NCBI RefSeq assembly: GCF_000758625.1
Contig: NZ_CP009283.1
Span: 1,003,501-1,067,500 of the forward strand
DNA length: 64,000 nt
Source: Paenibacillus sp. FSL R7-0273
GTDB taxonomy: Bacteria > Bacillota > Bacilli > Paenibacillales > Paenibacillaceae
Reading direction: 5' to 3'
Shown here: positions 5,270 through 19,321 of the stretch, in pieces
Layout: every line of letters starts with the position of its first letter
Position numbering within the stretch: the stretch's first letter is position 1
Program-made: the position numbers and the translations under genes
The notes under the pieces: generated by a model
Databases searched by the model: none
What the model saw: the letters and a program-made list of their open reading frames with translations, nothing else
What the model was told of the DNA's origin: nothing

Positions 5270-5444
5270 GTTGTAAATCTCTCCTTTTTCTTATGGGTAT
5301 TCTGGTGCACTCAAGCTTCATCATACATGGTTTGTCCCGGCTGATGCAAAGACTGGAGGCATATAGCGTTTGGCAGGGCGGAAAAATAGGTTTAATATGG
5401 TAGTTACTTTACTTCAGGGAGTAACAGAAGGGACGGTGGTTGTT

Positions 5445-6683
5445 TTGGCATTTTCATGGAAGCGGAATCTGATTGTACTCTGGATCGGGGTGTTCTTTTG
5501 CAGCACCGCCTACTCGATCTCGATTCCGTTCCTTTCGATTTTTCTTAGTGACCAGCTCGGTGTAACCAGCCATCTGGAAATCTGGTCCGGTGTAAGCTTT
5601 GGGATTACCTTTCTGGCCAGTGCGCTGATCTCGCCTTACTGGGGATCTCTGGCTGACAAATACGGGCGCAAGCCGATGCTGATCCGCTCGGGCTTCAGTC
5701 TGGCCGCACTTTATCTGATTAATTACTTTGTGCATGACCCTTATGTATTTCTCGTTGTGCGTGTGCTGCAGGGCTTGCTGGCCGGATTCGTTCCGGCGGC
5801 GATTGCGATGGTGGCGACCAATACACCAGAGGAAAAGACCGGCTATGCGCTCAGCGTGATGTCTACAGCGGGAGCGACCGGCAGCATCATCGGCCCGCTG
5901 ATCGGCGGGGTGGTCAGCTTTTATTCGAGCAACCGCAGCGCGTTTCTGTTCTCGGCGGCGATTGTGCTTGTCTCTGCGCTGATTGCCACCTTTTTCGCTA
6001 AGGAAGAGAATTTTAACCGTTCTGCACCCAGGTCGCGCGTCAGTGATGACATCCGTGAGGCGGTGAAGAATAAAGCCTTTATTACACTGCTTTCTTTAGC
6101 CGGCATCAGCACGTTCTCCGTAATGATCCTGGAGCCGCTGCTGCCAATCTACCTTCTTGATATGGGGATCTCGAGGAACACGGCGTCCCTTAGTTCGGGT
6201 ATTGTTTTCTCCGCTGTCGGCATAGCGACGGTGATCATGGCTCCGCAGTGGGGGAGGATCGGCAGCCGCAAGGGCTTCGGATTTATTCTGTTCATCGGTC
6301 TGATCGGCGGAGGGATCGGCAACATCCTGCAGTATTTCGTCTCCGGCTATGTAGAGTTTGCTATCCTGCGGTTTGTCTACGGCCTGTTCTACGCCGGGGT
6401 GCTGCCGTCAGTCAATGCCATGATTGTCCAGACCATTGAGCCGGGCTTCCGCGGACGGGCCTTTGGCCTGAATCAGGCGGCCTCGCAGCTGGCGACCATG
6501 GCCGGTCCGATTATAGGCGGCCTGCTGGGCGCCTTTATTCCGATCCGCTGGGTGTTCGTCGTCAACGGCATGATACTGCTTGTAGCTGCAGTGCTCGTTA
6601 AGGTCCGCAACCTGGAAGCCAAGGTCGGGCAGGCGCGTGCCCGCGGAGAGCAGGGAGATACAGAGGCAGCCGGTAATATATGA
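5445..6683 (+). CDS. MFS efflux transporter, 12 membrane segments
   Basis: Drug:H+ antiporter-like major facilitator of 412 residues with about 12 hydrophobic segments. The conserved loop 2-3 motif GSLADKYGRKPML (motif A) and a weaker repeat GRIGSRKG between the two halves are visible, as is the motif-C-like GPLIGG in segment 5. Start choice is uncertain. A TTG at 5370 has a good GGAGG site but adds 25 unconserved residues; the TTG at 5445 opens just before SWKRNLIVLWIGVF, where similar transporters begin. Substrate cannot be predicted. Confidence 0.85.
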   Translation: MAFSWKRNLIVLWIGVFFCSTAYSISIPFLSIFLSDQLGVTSHLEIWSGVSFGITFLASALISPYWGSLADKYGRKPMLIRSGFSLAALYLINYFVHDPYVFLVVRVLQGLLAGFVPAAIAMVATNTPEEKTGYALSVMSTAGATGSIIGPLIGGVVSFYSSNRSAFLFSAAIVLVSALIATFFAKEENFNRSAPRSRVSDDIREAVKNKAFITLLSLAGISTFSVMILEPLLPIYLLDMGISRNTASLSSGIVFSAVGIATVIMAPQWGRIGSRKGFGFILFIGLIGGGIGNILQYFVSGYVEFAILRFVYGLFYAGVLPSVNAMIVQTIEPGFRGRAFGLNQAASQLATMAGPIIGGLLGAFIPIRWVFVVNGMILLVAAVLVKVRNLEAKVGQARARGEQGDTEAAGNI

Positions 6684-7827: not shown

Positions 7828-9726
7828 ATGAAGCTGGTATCACTAAAAAGAGTGGCCGTCCTTTGCATGCTTCTCCTCTTGACCGTTCTTGTGATTGCAG
7901 GATTAACTGTAGGACGGAACGGCGGGCAGGATATCGTCCTGCTGGACTGGGAGCAGAAATGGGCATATACGGGAGAGGAAACAGTTGCCGCTGCGGCCGC
8001 TGCCCCGGAAGAGGAATGGTCAAAGTTGTCAGCGGATTCAGGCAGGCCGGTAACGCCAGCGGATGCCGACGCAGCCTGGCTGCGTTTTGAAATACCGGTT
8101 AATGAGAACCATACAGCGCTGCTTATTGATAAAGTATATGGAACAACGCTTAAAGCCTACCGTAATAACGAGCTTATCTATGATTCCAGACAGACGGTTA
8201 ATTTTAACGGAACCAAGGTACTGATTCCTTTGTCAGACCGTCAGGGTGACGGGCCGCTGTATCTGTGGAGCACCGGCGGTGACAGAGGGTTCGGGGTAGG
8301 CGGACAGATCCGGGCAGGTAACTACGACGGACTGATGACTTTATATGTCAAGCAGGATATGGTAGACGTAATTCTCGGCACCTCGCTGATGTTTATGGCG
8401 GCTGTCCTGCTGCTCTGTTTATATTTTGTGAAGGTAAGAATGTTCTCCGGCGGGTATTGGCTGGTGATTGTAATCTTTACATTCGGCGTTCTGTTTATTA
8501 CCTATTCTCCATTTCTTGCGCTTATTCTGGGCAGCAGGGAGCGTCTGACCGAGGCTGTCTTTGATATGGCTTTATTTATGCTGCTGCCTGCCTTCACGCT
8601 GTATTTTGAACAGATTTTCGGACCGGGAAGAGGCCGGCATCTGGTCCTTTTCCGTAATATTCAGCTGGGGTATTCGCTCTTCTGCCTCATGCTGCTCCTG
8701 CTGAACACCCTGCTGTCGTATCAGCTGGACGAGCTGTATATAATGATGACCGTTAATGTTACCGGGGTAATGATGATCATACAGCTGATTTATCTGCTCG
8801 GGCTGGCCATTCTTTATGCCTACAGGGGCAATAAGGATGCGGCGATTTTTGCTTCCGGCTTCGCCCTTTTTGCGGTCATTTCGCTCAGTGAGCTGGTACT
8901 GTATTTCTCATCCAGCAGCCCGTTCCATCTCTACTGGTGGAAGTGGGGCGTAGTTGCATTCATCCTTTCGCTGATCGTCATTCTCGGCCGCGGCTTTGCC
9001 AGAAACTACGAGCAGGCGCTTAACTATTCCAGGGAGCTGGAGCAGTTCAATAATGCCGCGCAGCGCTCCGAGAAAATGGAGATTATCAGTGAGCTCGCTG
9101 CTTCCGTAGCCCATGAGGTGCGCAATCCGCTGCAGGTGACGCGCGGGTTCCTGCAGATTCTGGGGGAGCGCTCCGGGCGTAAGGAGAAGGAATATCTGAA
9201 TATGGCGATGCAGGAGCTGGACCGGGCCTCCGTGATCATTACTGATTTTCTTACCTTTGCCAAGCCGGGGATGGAAGAGATCGACGTATTTGAGGTGTCT
9301 GGGGAGCTGAAGCATGTGGCCGGTATTCTGGGGCCGCTGGCTAATCTGCAGGGCGGAACCATTGAGACGCATCTGCAGGAGGAGCTGTTTGTGCTGGGCA
9401 GTCCCGCCAAGTTCAAGCAGGCTTTTATTAATCTGATTAAGAACAGTGTGGAGGCGCTGAAGGAGGATGGCCTGATCAAGGTGTCAGCGCGGAAATCGGG
9501 CCAGCATATTCTCATCAGTGTGGTGGATAACGGGGAAGGCATGAAGCTGAGCGAGCTGGCCCGGCTGGGCGAGCCCTTTTATTCGAACAAGACCAAGGGG
9601 ACCGGCCTGGGCCTGATGGTCACCTTCCGGATCGTCGAGGCGATGAACGGGACCATTCATTTTTACAGCAAAAAGGGACAGGGAACCGAGGTAGTGGTAA
9701 AATTACCAGCTGATCACAATAAATAG
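7828..9726 (+). CDS. Membrane sensor histidine kinase, 7TM receptor type, first of a tandem pair
   Basis: 632 residues. Order: signal-type hydrophobic segment (about 8-28), a secreted beta-rich domain (about 35-175) with WLRFEIP and LYLWS motifs resembling 7TMR-DISM extracellular modules, seven hydrophobic segments (about 180-395), a HisKA domain with H-box SVAHEVRNPLQ (His429), and a HATPase domain with N-box LIKNSVEAL, G1 DNGEGM, F-box EPFYSNK and G2 GTGLGL. The kinase core resembles the Kin-type orphan kinases that feed the sporulation phosphorelay. No response regulator is adjacent. A close paralogue follows after 96 bp, and the RiPP-like unit is convergent beyond that. Confidence 0.9.
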   Translation: MKLVSLKRVAVLCMLLLLTVLVIAGLTVGRNGGQDIVLLDWEQKWAYTGEETVAAAAAAPEEEWSKLSADSGRPVTPADADAAWLRFEIPVNENHTALLIDKVYGTTLKAYRNNELIYDSRQTVNFNGTKVLIPLSDRQGDGPLYLWSTGGDRGFGVGGQIRAGNYDGLMTLYVKQDMVDVILGTSLMFMAAVLLLCLYFVKVRMFSGGYWLVIVIFTFGVLFITYSPFLALILGSRERLTEAVFDMALFMLLPAFTLYFEQIFGPGRGRHLVLFRNIQLGYSLFCLMLLLLNTLLSYQLDELYIMMTVNVTGVMMIIQLIYLLGLAILYAYRGNKDAAIFASGFALFAVISLSELVLYFSSSSPFHLYWWKWGVVAFILSLIVILGRGFARNYEQALNYSRELEQFNNAAQRSEKMEIISELAASVAHEVRNPLQVTRGFLQILGERSGRKEKEYLNMAMQELDRASVIITDFLTFAKPGMEEIDVFEVSGELKHVAGILGPLANLQGGTIETHLQEELFVLGSPAKFKQAFINLIKNSVEALKEDGLIKVSARKSGQHILISVVDNGEGMKLSELARLGEPFYSNKTKGTGLGLMVTFRIVEAMNGTIHFYSKKGQGTEVVVKLPADHNK

Positions 9727-9822: not shown

Positions 9823-11739
9823 ATGCGCTTGATCGGTAAAAGTGTACATATAACAGCGATGCTGCTGCTGCTTCTGATGACGTTCGGGTCGCTGTCAGCC
9901 TCCGGGGAAGGCCGTTACGCCGCAAATGAAATTACAGAGTGGCAGATGCAGTGGGGCAGCGGAGCGGGGGATACCGGGCTTGAAGCTCCGCACAGCGGTC
10001 AGGGACACTGGTTCAGCAGCGGGAGAACCAAGCCTGCCGGCGATCTTCCGGAGGGAATCTCCTCAGCCTGGACAAAGATCCAGCTGCCGGTCTTTAACTA
10101 TGTGTCGCCTGCGGTGTACATCGAGAAGCTCTATGGTCTGCATATCAGGGTGTTTGTGGAGGACCGGCTTGTTCTGGAGGGGGACCGCAGCTACATTAAG
10201 GATAATTATTCATTGCTCGTACCGCTGAGCAGTGAGGACAACGGTAAGACCTTGTATATATGGGCTTCGACACTGCAGGACCGGATCGGAGTCAAGGATG
10301 CGATACAAGTCGGTGAGCACAGCGAGCTAATCCGCCATTTTGTCAAAAACGGACTGATCGACGTCATTCTGGGCGGGGCCTTTATTTTTGTGGCGCTGGT
10401 GCTGTTCATGTGCGGCTTTTTTCTGGACAGGGAGCATTTTTCAATTGCAGTCTCCTTATCCATTGTCATTGCAGCTACAGGGATACTGGCGGTTACTTAC
10501 TCTCCCTTCATTTATACATTCTACAGCTCCTACGGAGCACTAAGCGTAATCTTCCTCGATCTGGGACTGCTCTCCCTGCTGCCGGCGCTTACATTTTTGT
10601 TTGAGCGGATTTTCGGGAGCGGCCGCTTCTCCATCATCCGGCGGTTCCGCATTTTTCAGACGGCCTATTCCCTGTTCTGCATGGTGTTCCTGATTGTGAA
10701 TACGCTGGCAGACAACCGTTTTGTGGAAGGGTATTATTTTGTATCGACTACAGTTATCGGGTTTATTATGATAGCCCAGTTTATCCTCCTTATTGCCTGT
10801 GTGATTTTGTTTTCACTCAAAAAAAATAAGGATGCGATTACCTTCGCCATCGGCTTCGGCACCGCCGCCCTGACAGGTGTATCGGAGCTGGTCTGGTATT
10901 ACATCAAAAACGGCGATTATGATCTGTTCTACTGGAAATGGGCGCTGGTCGTATTCATTCTCTCGCTGATTGTTATTCTGGGCCGCAGGCTGGCCTTGAA
11001 CCACCGGCAGGTAGTGCAGTATTCACAGGAGCTGGAGCTGTTCAACAATGAGCTTCAACGTTCCGAAAAAATGGAAATTATCAGCGAGCTGGCGGCTTCG
11101 GTTGCTCATGAGGTGCGCAATCCGCTGCAGGTGACAAGAGGGTTCCTTCAGCTTCTCAGCGAGAAGGCAAGCGGCAGTGAAGCGCAGTATTTATCGATGG
11201 CGCTTAGCGAGCTGGACCGTGCGGCTAATATCATTACCGATTTCCTGACCTTTGCCAAGCCGGAATTTGAGCAGATTTCCATCCTTAATGTCAGGGAGGA
11301 ATTTAAGCATATCGAGAGTATTATGCTGCCGCTGTGTCATCTAAACGGGGGCAAAATGATCATGGAGGCCGGAGAGGGCCTGTGGGTAAAGGGCAACTCC
11401 TCCAAGTTCAAGCAGGCGTTCATCAATATTATCAAGAACAGCATTGAGTCGCTGGGGGATGAAGGCACGATTCATATGATCGCTTATGGTGTCGGTCCAT
11501 ACGTGTATATTCATATCCAGGATGACGGCGAGGGGATGGACCAGGAGGTGCTGAACCGGCTCGGTGAACCGTATTTCTCGAATAAAACGAAGGGAACAGG
11601 CCTTGGACTGATGGTTACTTTCCGGATCATTGAAGCCATGGCTGGCGAGGTCCGGTTCGAAAGCAAAAAGGGAGCCGGAACCGAAACCGTTACGACTCTG
11701 CCGCTGGCAGAGGCTCCGGGGGGTTCAGACTCCCTGTGA
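9823..11739 (+). CDS. Membrane sensor histidine kinase, 7TM receptor type, second of a tandem pair
   Basis: 638 residues with the same layout as the preceding kinase: signal segment ending near residue 27, secreted beta-rich domain (about 35-175), seven hydrophobic segments, then HisKA with the H-box at the same residue number (His429) and a complete HATPase (INIIKNSIESL, DDGEGM, GTGLGL). The DHp helix is almost identical to its neighbour, while the secreted domains differ strongly, as expected of duplicated receptors that diverged in ligand. GGGGTG before the ATG is a modest ribosome site. The gene ends 21 bp from the end of the convergent RiPP-like precursor, with no terminator visible between. 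Confidence 0.9.
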   Translation: MRLIGKSVHITAMLLLLLMTFGSLSASGEGRYAANEITEWQMQWGSGAGDTGLEAPHSGQGHWFSSGRTKPAGDLPEGISSAWTKIQLPVFNYVSPAVYIEKLYGLHIRVFVEDRLVLEGDRSYIKDNYSLLVPLSSEDNGKTLYIWASTLQDRIGVKDAIQVGEHSELIRHFVKNGLIDVILGGAFIFVALVLFMCGFFLDREHFSIAVSLSIVIAATGILAVTYSPFIYTFYSSYGALSVIFLDLGLLSLLPALTFLFERIFGSGRFSIIRRFRIFQTAYSLFCMVFLIVNTLADNRFVEGYYFVSTTVIGFIMIAQFILLIACVILFSLKKNKDAITFAIGFGTAALTGVSELVWYYIKNGDYDLFYWKWALVVFILSLIVILGRRLALNHRQVVQYSQELELFNNELQRSEKMEIISELAASVAHEVRNPLQVTRGFLQLLSEKASGSEAQYLSMALSELDRAANIITDFLTFAKPEFEQISILNVREEFKHIESIMLPLCHLNGGKMIMEAGEGLWVKGNSSKFKQAFINIIKNSIESLGDEGTIHMIAYGVGPYVYIHIQDDGEGMDQEVLNRLGEPYFSNKTKGTGLGLMVTFRIIEAMAGEVRFESKKGAGTETVTTLPLAEAPGGSDSL

Positions 11740-11760: not shown

Positions 11761-12000
11761 TTACCAGGAACCGAGGGGGGTGACATCCGTCTTCATAACA
11801 CCGGAGGACGGGCTGGGCGGAATGACCAGGTAGAATTCGTTGGAGCCTTCCTCTACCGTTTTGAGCGTAATATGGTCGGGCAGATCAATACCTAGTGCTT
11901 CCCGGAGGGCTTCTTTTGGATTGACTAGCAGTTTCTGTTTGAAACCCGGATCCTCCCATGCCTTCTGAATCACCTGATTCTTAAAAATTGCCTCTGACAC
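11761..12000 (-). CDS. NHLP-leader RiPP precursor-like peptide, 79 aa
   Basis: Small peptide with the layout of nitrile-hydratase-like-leader (NHLP) natural product precursors. Residues 9-40 form the alpha leader with QKAWEDPGFKQKLL, NPKEAL and GIDLPD; residues 44-62 carry TVEEGSNEFYLVIPP, where such leaders usually end. The remaining 17 residues (63-79) would be the core and finish with Pro-Leu-Gly-Ser-Trp at the C terminus. The start is GTG 12000, 9 bp after GGAAGG; a GTG at 12009 overlaps that site and is less likely. It lies 64 bp downstream of an isoprenoid-synthase-like gene on the same strand and is probably its substrate, an inference. No dedicated protease or exporter is next to it. 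Confidence 0.8.
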   Translation of the reverse strand: MSEAIFKNQVIQKAWEDPGFKQKLLVNPKEALREALGIDLPDHITLKTVEEGSNEFYLVIPPSPSSGVMKTDVTPLGSW

Positions 12001-12064
12001 AACAATCACCCTTCCCCAAATGGTTTGATTACCCCGTTAGCATACCATAGCATTTTATTACAAT

Positions 12065-13048
12065 CTATGACTTTTTTTGGTTGTTAGCTGAATTTTCAAA
12101 GAATTCCTGGCTTTTCATATGTTTAGATAGCCAATACTGTAATCCGCCGCCCAGAAGCTGCTCTTTTTCCGCTTCAACTGCTGCCGCGATTCTCTGAAGA
12201 TTGTCCGCGAGCATCTGATGGAAGGCGGTCAGGCCGGAAATACGGAAGGTGCCGGCGAGCAGCCGTTCATGATTGTCCGCCGCGGCAGCTGCATACGTCT
12301 TGAGACCTCCGGCTGTATAGATGAAATTCCTGGCCTCGGCGGCAGTAATCCCGGCTTGGGGATGGTCAGGATACAGATGCCTGCGGGCCAGTGCCAGCAG
12401 GCAATTATAGCTGCCCTCCTCCAGATCCTCTTCCCAGTCCTCGTAATCATCGAGCATCTGCAGCGTAATCAGCACCTCCTGCACTGCTTCTTCTGCAGCC
12501 GGAATTGAGGACGCAAGGCCGGTGAGCAGCAGTGCGGCTGCTGCTGAAAGCTTGAGTGGAGCTGCTTTGCCGGCAATCCGGCTGCGGTCGTTATAATAGT
12601 AGTCGCCTGAGGCTTCATTGCTGACGCTGTCTGACCATTCGAAGAGATAACGCTTGAAGTGGCTCCAGAAGGAGGATTCTGCAGGGAAAAGCGGGCGGTA
12701 GCGGTCAAGAAACTCTGAATACAGCAGATTGGCCAGCGGCAGCAGCTCCGCCGCCGAGCTGCGCCGGTTATCCATCAGATCATCCTGCAGGAAGAAGTAC
12801 AGCATCAGCAGGACATTCCCTGTAGACATGATGTGCGTCTCTTCCGGGCTCAGCCCGCATTCCCTGCGGAGCCAGAACGGAAGCAGGTAGCAGATGTAAT
12901 TCTTTTTGCTGCGGGCCCGGAACACATCGAACTGCTCAAGATAGGCAAGCCCCCGGGAGCCCAGCGGCTCCGGAAATCCGGCAATGGCTGCTTTACATTC
13001 CTGAAAAACGGCTTGAAGCTCCAGCTCATAATCGTTCAGCCATTCCAT
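12065..13048 (-). CDS. Class I isoprenoid synthase-fold enzyme (terpene/prenyl synthase-like)
   Basis: 327-residue, helix-rich soluble protein. Two aspartate motifs mark the class I isoprenoid-synthase fold: LQDDLMDN (Asp89, Asp90, Asp93) and LQMLDDYEDWEED (Asp200, Asp201, Asp204 and following acids). These bind Mg-diphosphate in polyprenyl synthases, ComQ and terpene cyclases. The ATG at 13048 has AGGGG 8 bp upstream; the longer GTG start at 13066 has no ribosome site. A near-consensus promoter lies at 13108-13136. The next gene on the strand encodes a RiPP-like peptide ending in Trp, so peptide prenylation is a reasonable hypothesis; making a free terpene is the alternative. Confidence 0.78.
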   Translation of the reverse strand: MEWLNDYELELQAVFQECKAAIAGFPEPLGSRGLAYLEQFDVFRARSKKNYICYLLPFWLRRECGLSPEETHIMSTGNVLLMLYFFLQDDLMDNRRSSAAELLPLANLLYSEFLDRYRPLFPAESSFWSHFKRYLFEWSDSVSNEASGDYYYNDRSRIAGKAAPLKLSAAAALLLTGLASSIPAAEEAVQEVLITLQMLDDYEDWEEDLEEGSYNCLLALARRHLYPDHPQAGITAAEARNFIYTAGGLKTYAAAAADNHERLLAGTFRISGLTAFHQMLADNLQRIAAAVEAEKEQLLGGGLQYWLSKHMKSQEFFENSANNQKKS

Positions 13049-13107
13049 CGGCTTGTCCCCTGTCACTATTAGGATGGTCTGTAAATCTATAGCTGACTGA
13101 TGCTTTG

Positions 13108-13136
13108 ATTGTATGCTGAAATAACGTCTTTTTCAA
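13108..13136 (-). promoter_or_regulatory. SigA-type promoter of the isoprenoid synthase/precursor unit
   Basis: On the minus strand TTGAAA (13136-13131) and TACAAT (13113-13108) are separated by exactly 17 bp. The site lies 60 bp upstream of the ATG at 13048 and is the only good promoter seen for the two-gene unit. Confidence 0.65.
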
Positions 13137-13162
13137 TGAGAACCTGAAGGGGGATGAGACAG

Positions 13163-13483
13163 ATGCAATGGTATACGTTCGGGCAGATGCTGGCGCAGAT
13201 CCGCATCGGGCAGACAGCCGCTACACCCGACGGCCGTGCGGTAATCCGCACGCGTGGCGGACTGCTCTGGCAGGGCGGAAGACTTGGCGGAACAGTGGTT
13301 GAAGTCAGGGATTACCTGTTCTCGGATATCTGGACGATAAGCGAGGATGAAGCTGGGGGGCCGGAGAACGAAATGCGGGAAGCGCATGAGCGCAGGGAAC
13401 GTGAAATGCTGGTGAACCAGTATGAGGAAGTGCGGGAAGATTTCCTGCGGGATAGAAGGCATACGCCGGGAAGAGAAACATGA
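13163..13483 (+). CDS. Hypothetical protein, 106 aa
   Basis: I do not recognise a defined function. Residues 1-60 (starting MQWYTFGQMLAQIRIGQTA) look like a small beta-rich domain, perhaps related to small phage or conserved proteins with a TFGxML start; the C-terminal 45 residues are a charged helix rich in Glu and Arg. The start at 13163 is preferred because AAGGGGG lies 10 bp upstream, whereas the ATG at 13154 is too close. It is divergent from the isoprenoid synthase gene. Confidence 0.65.
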   Translation: MQWYTFGQMLAQIRIGQTAATPDGRAVIRTRGGLLWQGGRLGGTVVEVRDYLFSDIWTISEDEAGGPENEMREAHERREREMLVNQYEEVREDFLRDRRHTPGRET

Positions 13484-17015: not shown

Positions 17016-18662
17016 ATGAAAATCAAAACAACCGCGGAAGACAAAATGATTGCTTTTTACAGATACTTTTCTTTGTCCCTCACATCTCTGATGTACCTCC
17101 TGGACCATACGGGGCCTTCCGTCATTTATAAATCCCTATTAATCGTCTCGCTTTTCTTAATTGCACAAGCATTCGTAATTACTTACCGGAGGCTCCGGAC
17201 CAGACCGCGGGTTCTGATGCTCGCAGTCAGCATAGAGATGGCTGGCGTTATTGCACTGACCTTACTGACAGGCGGTTTTGACAGTGTATTCAAGCTTTAC
17301 GTGCTTAACCCTGTTCTTATCGCGGCAGGATCGTTATCCATGTATTTCGGGTGGGGACTGCTGCTGAGCTATATTGTTATTGTAACCGGCTTTTGCTATA
17401 TATTTGTTAATTCTGCGGGCAAATCGGTAACGGATGCAGTATTGCAGAACGGTAACCTGTTTCTAGCCCTGGTTCTTGCGGTTATAGTAATGCAGATGGT
17501 TAACAGGATCAAGCGGCAGCGGGAAGAAGCGAACGCGCGGACCAACGAAACCATGGAGCATATTAAATCGCTCTATCACATCGTCGAAACCTCCAGCCAG
17601 CATGACTTCATGAACATTGGCCAGGTCATTACCGATTACGTGGTGAAGCTGACCAAGCTGGATAAGGCCTTATTCTGGTTTGCCAAAAAAAGCGGTGAGC
17701 CTGCCCCGCAGAGCCGGCAGACCGGATGGCAGCATGAAGAGGAACGTTTTTTGTTCACAGAGCTGGAAAAGCATGAGCACGAATGGAGGCTGCAGCGTGA
17801 GCCGGTGTTCAAGAGTATGCCTGGCCTTGGCGACTTTTTGCTGATGCCGGTAAGAATGAGCACCCGATTTGTCGGTATGATCGGCGTGAAGCTGGAATCC
17901 TCGGAGGGACTTGAGGGACGCAGGTGGTACATTCAGCAGCTGATGTTTCTGTCAGAGCTGAGTGCGATTATTCTGGAGCGGCATGAGCTGGGTGTCATCG
18001 AGAACCGTCTGATCATCACGAATGAGCAGAACCGGATCGCCGATGAAATGCATGACAGCGTATCGCAGAGCCTGTTCGGCATTGTGTACGCAACCCATTC
18101 GCTGAAGCAGACCTGGCGTAAAATGTCCGACTCCGAGCTTGAGGAGCAGATTGACCTGATTCATGACTCGGCAACGCGGGTTGCCAAGGAGCTGCGGATA
18201 ACGATTTACAGCCTCAGCTCCAAGAAGAGCGGCGGACCAACCTGGCTGGGGATGGTCAGATCACATCTCAAGAGCCTGTCGAGGCTCAATGATGTGGAGA
18301 TTGAACTGAAAATAACGGGGGATGATTTCAGCCTCCCTTATCCTTACCACAAGGCACTCTTCCGGATTATATCCGAAGCGACAGGCAACGCCATACGTCA
18401 TGGTGCGGCCAGCCGGGTGGATGTTGAGCTGTCACTGAAGCCTAAATGGATCAGACTGTCTATTACAGACGACGGAATCGGTTTCGATACGGATCTGCTG
18501 TGGACTACGTCTGAAGATACCACCGGCGGGCTTGGCATGAAGAATATGCAATATCTGACTCAGTCGCTGGGCGGAGAGTTCCATATCTCCAGCAGCGAGA
18601 ATGCAGGCACCAAAATTTCAATTTCGATACCTGTCGGCGTGGCTGAATTAAAGAATGCATAA
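17016..18662 (+). CDS. NarL/LiaS-type sensor histidine kinase (HisKA_3)
   Basis: 548 residues. About six hydrophobic segments lie in residues 15-165, followed by a cytosolic GAF-like sensory region (about 190-325). The HisKA_3 dimerisation helix carries DEMHDSVSQSLFG with phospho-acceptor His346, and a short HATPase has ATGNAIRHG (N-box), DDGIGF and GGLGM. It should phosphorylate the LuxR-type regulator encoded 23 bp downstream. The stimulus is unknown. The pair is immediately upstream of the EPS operon, which it may control. Confidence 0.9.
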   Translation: MKIKTTAEDKMIAFYRYFSLSLTSLMYLLDHTGPSVIYKSLLIVSLFLIAQAFVITYRRLRTRPRVLMLAVSIEMAGVIALTLLTGGFDSVFKLYVLNPVLIAAGSLSMYFGWGLLLSYIVIVTGFCYIFVNSAGKSVTDAVLQNGNLFLALVLAVIVMQMVNRIKRQREEANARTNETMEHIKSLYHIVETSSQHDFMNIGQVITDYVVKLTKLDKALFWFAKKSGEPAPQSRQTGWQHEEERFLFTELEKHEHEWRLQREPVFKSMPGLGDFLLMPVRMSTRFVGMIGVKLESSEGLEGRRWYIQQLMFLSELSAIILERHELGVIENRLIITNEQNRIADEMHDSVSQSLFGIVYATHSLKQTWRKMSDSELEEQIDLIHDSATRVAKELRITIYSLSSKKSGGPTWLGMVRSHLKSLSRLNDVEIELKITGDDFSLPYPYHKALFRIISEATGNAIRHGAASRVDVELSLKPKWIRLSITDDGIGFDTDLLWTTSEDTTGGLGMKNMQYLTQSLGGEFHISSSENAGTKISISIPVGVAELKNA

Positions 18663-18685
18663 ACTTTAGGCAGGAGGTCATTCAA

Positions 18686-19321
18686 GTGAATATCGTCATT
18701 GTTGATGATCACCCGTTGGTGAGAAGAGGATTGGCAGCGGTCATCTCCATGCAGCCTAATCTGCACTTTGCAGGCGAAGCAACGAATGGCCAGGAGGCTC
18801 TTCTGGTTATCGAAGAGACACAGCCTGATCTTGTGCTGATTGATTTGCGGCTGGCGGACGAGTCGGGCCTTGATGTCATCAAGAGTGCACGGGCGCGCGG
18901 ACTTACCAGCAAGTTCATCCTGCTCACCTCCTCGGCCAGCCGGGAAGACTTCCTCAAAGCGGAAGAGGTACTGGTTGACGGATATGTGCTGAAGGAAGCC
19001 TTGCCGGAGGAGCTGCTGTTTGCGATCCAGCTGGTCTACAAGGGCCGCAAGTATTATGATCCCGGCCTGATGGAAGATAAGATGCGGATGAGCGGCAGCA
19101 GTCCTACCGATGAATTGACACCCAAGGAAAAGGAAGTGCTGATTGAACTCGGCCAGGGTGCGTGCAATAAGGACATTGCTTCGCGCCTGTTCATCAGTGA
19201 ATTCACTGTTAAGAAGCATGTAAGCCAGATTCTTGCGAAGCTGCAGGTTGCAGACCGGACACAGGCGGCGCTGTATGCTAATGCAGTTGGACTGACTAAG
19301 TACGAAATGTCCTATGATTAA
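18686..19321 (+). CDS. NarL/LuxR-type response regulator
   Basis: 211 residues, GTG start with AGGAGGT upstream. The receiver domain (1-120) has the acidic pair Asp7-Asp8, phospho-acceptor Asp53 in LVLIDLRL, and conserved Lys103 in GYVLKEA. The LuxR-type helix-turn-helix (about 139-200) contains LTPKEKEVL and FTVKKHVSQILAKL. It is cotranscribed with the preceding kinase. A terminator follows, then the EPS operon leader. Confidence 0.93.
   Translation: MNIVIVDDHPLVRRGLAAVISMQPNLHFAGEATNGQEALLVIEETQPDLVLIDLRLADESGLDVIKSARARGLTSKFILLTSSASREDFLKAEEVLVDGYVLKEALPEELLFAIQLVYKGRKYYDPGLMEDKMRMSGSSPTDELTPKEKEVLIELGQGACNKDIASRLFISEFTVKKHVSQILAKLQVADRTQAALYANAVGLTKYEMSYD

Follow-up and report, generated by a model that had tools for sequence, protein, structure and literature searches.

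The 64,000 nucleotides of Paenibacillus sp. FSL R7-0273 that were analysed (the window) carry a palP-palX-palQ unit with a duplicated kinase, which belongs to the PalQ/PalX/PalP kind described in Paenibacillus alvei in 2023 by Miyata, Ito and Fujinami, where an NHLP leader is paired with an enzyme of the isoprenoid-synthase fold in a cluster that includes the kinase PalP (PMC10853753). Prenylation of the C-terminal Trp79 at the window, a reaction shown in P. alvei, is very probable by homology. For the chain as a whole, a prenylated pheromone feeding the Spo0 phosphorelay is the reading that we moderately favour, its signalling and output parts being those that we infer.

In the proposed mechanism, PalQ, helped by the NHLP leader, would prenylate indole C3 of Trp79 with a C5-C15 group to give a tricyclic pyrroloindole, and a host protease would remove the leader near the K-T/D junction, leaving about DVTPLGSW(prenyl), which would then leave the cell. 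Sensing of this prenyl peptide by the extracellular beta-sandwich and seven-transmembrane (7TM) domain of the neighbouring kinase HK2 is considered reasonably probable. Transfer of phosphate from HK2 to Spo0F, which would make the peptide a cell-density input to the sporulation phosphorelay, is put forward tentatively.

Organisation of the locus

The features of the unit are collected in Table 1. The enzyme reading frame spans 12065-13066, and within it the ATG at 13048 is favoured as start because of the conserved ribosome-binding site and the relatives. The promoter scan matched TTGAAA-17-TACAAT at 10 of 12 positions, which alone is weak since two sites were found against 1.0 expected in shuffles; ATTGAAA and TA-AAT are however invariant upstream of the enzyme gene in 12 aligned sequences (the window and 11 relatives), and this conservation supports the promoter better than the scan does. 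The precursor leader was assigned to the NHLP type by NCBIfam TIGR03793 (67.1 bits, cut-off 50.9), and the codon of Trp79, the last residue, lies at 11764-11766 directly before TAA. A Pfam scan of the same peptide at E<=1 returned NHase_alpha, Frankia_peptide and DurB-like and no PF05952 (ComX).

Table 1. Features of the palP-palX-palQ unit and the second kinase, in window coordinates
Feature	Coordinates	Strand	Basis or remark
Promoter of palQ-palX, TTGAAA-17-TACAAT	13108..13136	-	Scan and alignment of upstream regions
Ribosome-binding site AGGGGA of the enzyme gene	13056..13061	-	Inside conserved TGACAGG-GA
PalQ-type Trp prenyltransferase, 327 aa from ATG, class I isoprenoid-synthase fold	12065..13048	-	
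First acid motif D89-D93	12770..12784	-	D89 and D93 in 140/140 sampled relatives
Q197 and second acid cluster D200/D201/D204/D208	12425..12460	-	Each in 140/140 sampled relatives
PalX-type precursor, 79 aa from GTG at 12000, NHLP leader, C-terminal Trp79	11761..12000	-	TIGR03793
Predicted processed core DVTPLGSW	11764..11787	-	Inferred, aligned with the T72/D73 cut of P. alvei PalX
HK2, PalP-type orphan histidine kinase, convergent with palX	9823..11739	+	Domain and structure basis
HK1, second kinase of the type of HK2	7828..9726	+	Clade kept in relatives without HK2-palX-palQ

The sequence-only reading of this DNA had proposed the two genes, their promoter, the acid motifs at D89-D93 and D200-D208, a 79-aa peptide with an NHLP-type leader and its C-terminal Trp, all of which were recovered here, with both genes on the minus strand and the motifs as numbered from the ATG at 13048. 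Its unit of enzyme and peptide was correct as far as it went, the two adjoining histidine kinases having been left unmentioned, and its statement that no characterised system pairs an NHLP leader with this fold is contradicted by the 2023 publication of PalQ/PalX (PMC10853753).

No exporter or protease gene was found within the unit at the window, which counts against the proposed chain, and an MFS gene at 5370-6683 is not tied to it because relatives lacking palQ and palX retain that gene too. The small open reading frame at 13154-13483 (+), divergent from palQ and without Pfam or NCBIfam match, occurs in many close relatives and at several loci without palQ and palX. At 17016-19321 (+), a HisKA_3 kinase and a LuxR-type regulator adjoin a Wzz-type gene in an order that is kept in relatives devoid of palQ and palX.

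The PalQ-type enzyme

The window enzyme carries D89, D93, Q197, D200 and D204 at the numbers of P. alvei PalQ when counted from the 327-aa start, and also D208. The FARM (D89/D93), the SARM (D200/D204) and Q197 are thus all present on the isoprenoid-synthase fold, and these residues together with D201 and D208 are invariant in the 140 loci sampled, a set chosen by us across the listed genera out of 326 genomes with PalQ. In P. alvei, a D200A/D204A PalQ mutant is reported to be still active in an endpoint assay (PMC10853753). The predicted model of the window enzyme is all helical and aligns with polyprenyl synthases. A cyanobactin prenyltransferase identity, for which an alpha/beta barrel is expected, was rejected on this ground. 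Neither NCBIfam (at E<=1) nor Pfam (above cut-off) gave a match for the enzyme, and a sequence link of PalQ to solved structures was dropped for want of a confident match (best E 0.73); kinship to these structures is, as judged from the predicted model, visible only through the fold.

The enzyme is 38% identical to that of relative L092, which stood in for P. alvei in this comparison since its PalX has DNVRR from residue 73, as published. The L092 PalX (L092:7560-7856) combines this P. alvei-type core start with a divergent tail, and its end is not the published FFW.

Probable prenylation and processing of the precursor

According to the published in vitro work, P. alvei PalQ prenylates the C-terminal Trp of PalX with C5, C10 and C15 donors while the wild-type enzyme refuses the C20 donor; NMR of the C5 product places the attachment at indole C3 of the last Trp, forming a pyrroloindole, and the NHLP leader boosts the reaction without being essential (PMC10853753). 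A 2026 review likewise treats PalQ as an established Trp prenyltransferase. The prenylated or terpenylated, bioactive peptide that had been proposed from the sequence is therefore very probable as regards the prenylated Trp, except that a C20 group is not accepted by the P. alvei wild type and that a signalling activity is deduced indirectly.

The boundary of the 17-aa core given in the sequence-only reading found no support, as recombinant P. alvei PalX is cut by cell lysate between T72 and D73, leaving 8 aa (PMC10853753). A cut at the junction aligned to T72/D73 would leave DVTPLGSW at the window.

Of the 140 sampled loci, 133 have PalX next to PalQ and 3 have it at up to 4 kb; in the last 4, PalX is encoded in another part of the genome. 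One of the 133 neighbouring peptides is cut by a contig end, and of the 132 complete ones, 130 have Trp among their final five residues, the remainder of the core being variable. The two exceptions are L092, with a tail extending beyond the core, and L180, in which the frame continues and encodes no tail Trp. Trp is followed by no residue in 81 of these peptides, by one in 22, two in 18, three in 2 and four in 7, so that the conserved C-terminal aromatic residue that the earlier reading looked for is borne out as a tail Trp but as the very last residue only in 81/132.

One to four residues thus follow Trp in 49 of 130 natural PalX substrates, and this conflicts with the strict terminal rule of P. 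alvei PalQ in vitro, where an Ala appended after Trp abolished the reaction (PMC10853753). Either PalQ pockets that differ or prior trimming would account for the non-terminal Trp. Natural PalQ variants facing Trp plus 1-4 residues would be useful for the question of position selectivity.

Several PalX variants were also recorded. A subgroup with NCGPWR tails (L138, L139, L141, L143, L147, L148, L152, L154 and others) has Cys three residues before Trp and two or three residues after it. At L176:7496-8978 (+), five tandem PalX-like genes with differing tails (KYTWV, KFVWI, KYNWL, KYVWF and PFIWT) stand beside one PalQ and one kinase, possibly as a multi-peptide signal. In genome G356, four PalX matches lie on contigs C4 and C41, and three of these fall inside 1.4 kb of a single contig.

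Distribution of PalQ and PalX

In the family, order and class surveys, where scoring was limited to a few PalQ candidates from each genome, PalQ was detected in 326 of 394 genomes of the family of the window (Paenibacillaceae), in 272 of 392 genomes drawn from the order, 48 of these in three other families, and in 26 of 299 genomes drawn from the class, all within the window's own family. Searches with PalX matched 338 family genomes, 326 of them strongly, which are precisely those with PalQ, and 12 weakly; the occurrence of the small gene with homologues of the enzyme, an expectation of the earlier reading, was thereby confirmed without exception among the enzyme-bearing family genomes. A survey of named species genomes yielded 22 loci, 21 of them from records with Paenibacillus in the title, and PalX was recovered at 21 of the 22, always ending in Trp, the remaining locus being cut by a contig end.

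These counts bear on whether the enzyme might yield a free terpene or prenyl diphosphate with the peptide not a substrate, as its polyprenyl-synthase fold and the former annotation of PalQ as a terpene synthase (PMC10853753) would allow. A terpene synthase with a free product was excluded on the strong peptide match in each surveyed enzyme-bearing genome (326/326), and with the tail Trp in 130/132 and the prenylation performed in vitro by the P. alvei enzyme (PMC10853753), such an activity is hardly credible.

The distribution also weighs against a prenylated lipopeptide of antimicrobial or membrane-active nature, whose detection by the kinase would serve immunity or autoregulation. NHLP leaders are usually found on precursors of RiPP natural products, and antimicrobial peptides prenylated with PalQ are, according to the 2026 review, most active with a C10 group; presence in 326/394 family genomes with a conserved gene order is, we would argue, unlike that of a sporadic bacteriocin, the unit holds no immunity or export gene, and the kinase has no adjacent partner regulator. 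This function is consequently regarded as unlikely.

The neighbouring kinases as candidate receptors

HK2 is built of a signal/transmembrane helix, an extracellular beta-sandwich, 7 transmembrane helices and HisKA and HATPase domains. Both window kinases match HisKA PF00512, and HisKA_3 PF07730 was listed for neither. Wntless, the lipid-Wnt carrier, stood in the first Foldseek row for the sensor (E 1.6e-5), but a particular resemblance to it was discarded, as the TM score was 0.30 and the rmsd 14.5 and Wntless was not among the 50 rows of a second structure comparison; the match was taken as a common 7TM arrangement.

A convergent kinase lies near PalQ-PalX in 130 of the 140 sampled loci. Among the other ten, five are complete with PalX in place (L076, L078 and L081 with an upstream kinase only, L136 and L170 with no kinase in the stretch), another is truncated at a contig end and the remaining four have PalX elsewhere; these loci slightly lower the odds of the whole signalling chain. 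A receiver domain was found between -3.5 and +6 kb of PalQ in 1/140 loci, a test made with one LuxR-type receiver query on stretches of 8-14 kb in which distant receivers may be missed, and the kinases therefore look like orphans. In the genome of FSL R7-0273, 7.6 kb separate the start of the HK2 HisKA domain from that of the closest receiver domain.

Variation in peptide and kinase was compared in 125 PalX-kinase pairs (from the window and from those 124 of the 140 loci where a strong kinase stands no more than 700 bases away and the last six PalX residues include Trp, a selection that makes Trp conservation among them no result). Pairwise identity is 0.11-0.26 in the ten PalX columns before Trp and 0.17-0.35 per 20-residue block in kinase residues 1-180, against 0.96 in the block of the phosphorylated His. 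A variable core and a variable sensor would fit a ligand-receptor pair, although a variable sensor on a fixed kinase core is common among kinases and counts against the receptor reading.

Further information, in part against the signalling reading, came from genomes negative for palQ. A kinase with the HK-type sensor is kept in 24 of the 34 such family genomes tested (out of 68) and in 16/16 palQ-positive controls, and neither PalQ nor PalX was found near the sensor kinase in the 20 loci fetched out of these 24. A kinase tree combined the 2 window kinases with 96 taken from some of the 140 loci and 21 from loci without palQ and palX; several of its deep nodes have low support, and its root was set by us. 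In this tree, 9 of the 20 fetched loci hold the HK1 type only, 7 only the type that lies upstream of palQ at other loci, one two types and 3 the adjacent type. The adjacent-type kinase is thus kept without palX in 4/20 and missing in 16/20 while another type remains. At L305, for instance, the flanking genes follow the window order and HK2-palX-palQ is absent as a block between HK1 and the gene at 13154. In two clades HK2, palX and palQ go together as a unit, and the four loci with an adjacent-type kinase and no peptide may represent recent losses or another kinase input. The HK1-type kinases at L303:6222-7688 and L308:6858-8342, both without palQ and palX, are of about 490 aa with a sensor match starting near position 160, and their extracellular domain seems to be missing.

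Joint loss was not retained as proof of receptor function, as only two clades lack the adjacent kinase and four loci kept it; the joint absence is supporting and not decisive, because the pattern would be identical had those clades never gained the unit. The kinase could also be a mere neighbour that senses, for example, a glycan, its outer domain resembling sugar-binding domains, with an unrelated role for the prenyl peptide. The convergent pairing in 130/140 loci across genera and the absence of the adjacent-type kinase from 16/20 loci without palQ and palX while another type remains make such a coincidence improbable. A role of the peptide as a signal tied to sporulation is suggested, though not proven, by the conserved neighbouring sensor.

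A possible link to the sporulation phosphorelay

The residues governing partner choice were read at six positions, which we take to be His+7, +8, +11, +12, +14 and +15, chosen on kinase sequences so as to reproduce the strings of PMC6136694. At these positions 164 of 173 kinases of the sampled loci have QVGFQ[LI]; HK2 has QVGFQL and HK1 QVGFQI, with Gln replacing at position 1 the Thr of Spo0F kinases (T-x-G-F-Q-L/I). The strings listed for B. subtilis KinA-KinE are TAGFQL, TVGFQL, TSGFQI, TGGFQL and TAGFQL (PMC6136694), so that HK2 equals KinB at five of six positions. Within the FSL R7-0273 genome, HExRNP with GFQ[LI] occurs in 7 of 71 HisKA kinases, all seven without a receiver within 3 kb, against 7/64 of the others (PF00072, start-to-start distances). 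The phosphorelay is described as conserved in Paenibacillus (PMC12826061).

Gln at position 1, present in 170 of 171 kinases with a motif, distinguishes the PalP-type kinases from KinA-KinE as well as from the other five GFQ kinases in the FSL R7-0273 genome, which have Thr or Ala there, and this is why the Spo0F link is kept as a hypothesis. With the prenylated signal and its receptor unchanged, the kinase could instead target Spo0A directly or an unlinked regulator, as Kin1038 of P. polymyxa is suggested to reach Spo0A directly (PMC6429003). The other five positions match KinB, and the direct Spo0A kinases listed for C. acetobutylicum differ more (NVSAQV, NISAQL and SVGLQL; PMC6136694), which makes a receiver other than Spo0F rather unlikely. 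Among the openly licensed PMC papers listed, no title or opening of an abstract connects PalQ or PalX with quorum sensing or sporulation.

If the prenylated-pheromone reading is true, most Paenibacillaceae genomes would have one lipidated-peptide signal in common through which cell density could set sporulation, the short core of each lineage would be a testable pherotype, and PalQ, studied as a biocatalyst, would gain a biological role.

Comparison with known systems

The window unit resembles P. alvei PalQ/PalX/PalP in its NHLP precursor with C-terminal Trp, its isoprenoid-synthase-fold enzyme with D89/D93/Q197/D200/D204 and its histidine kinase. It differs by two tandem kinases, where the published description names one (PMC10853753), and by its core sequence; the enzyme identity given above refers to L092 and not to P. 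alvei PalQ itself. The prenyltransferase domain of ChrPC is, according to the 2026 review, a trans-IDS-like Trp prenyltransferase of a common superfamily; unlike the window enzyme, ChrPC has a C domain that cyclises the prenyl group, and its substrate is an internal Trp. With KinA-KinE the kinases share the orphan state and most specificity residues, while HK2 differs in Gln at position 1 and in a 7TM sensor with a beta-sandwich ectodomain.

Like ComQXPA of Bacillus subtilis, the unit combines an isoprenoid-synthase-fold enzyme that very probably acts on a near-C-terminal Trp, a short variable peptide and a multi-pass membrane kinase. Membership of ComQXPA was nevertheless ruled out by the precursor, which has an NHLP leader and is not of the ComX family, by kinases of HisKA and not HisKA_3 type, and by the missing adjacent response regulator; a convergent kinase is a further difference. 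More speculatively, PalQXP might be an ancient prenyl-peptide quorum sensing system across the order, wired to the sporulation phosphorelay with no dedicated response regulator. With its 7TM receptor kinase it would then be the equivalent of ComQXPA in Paenibacillus, including lineages in which the signal would have been lost and the receptor-type kinase kept.
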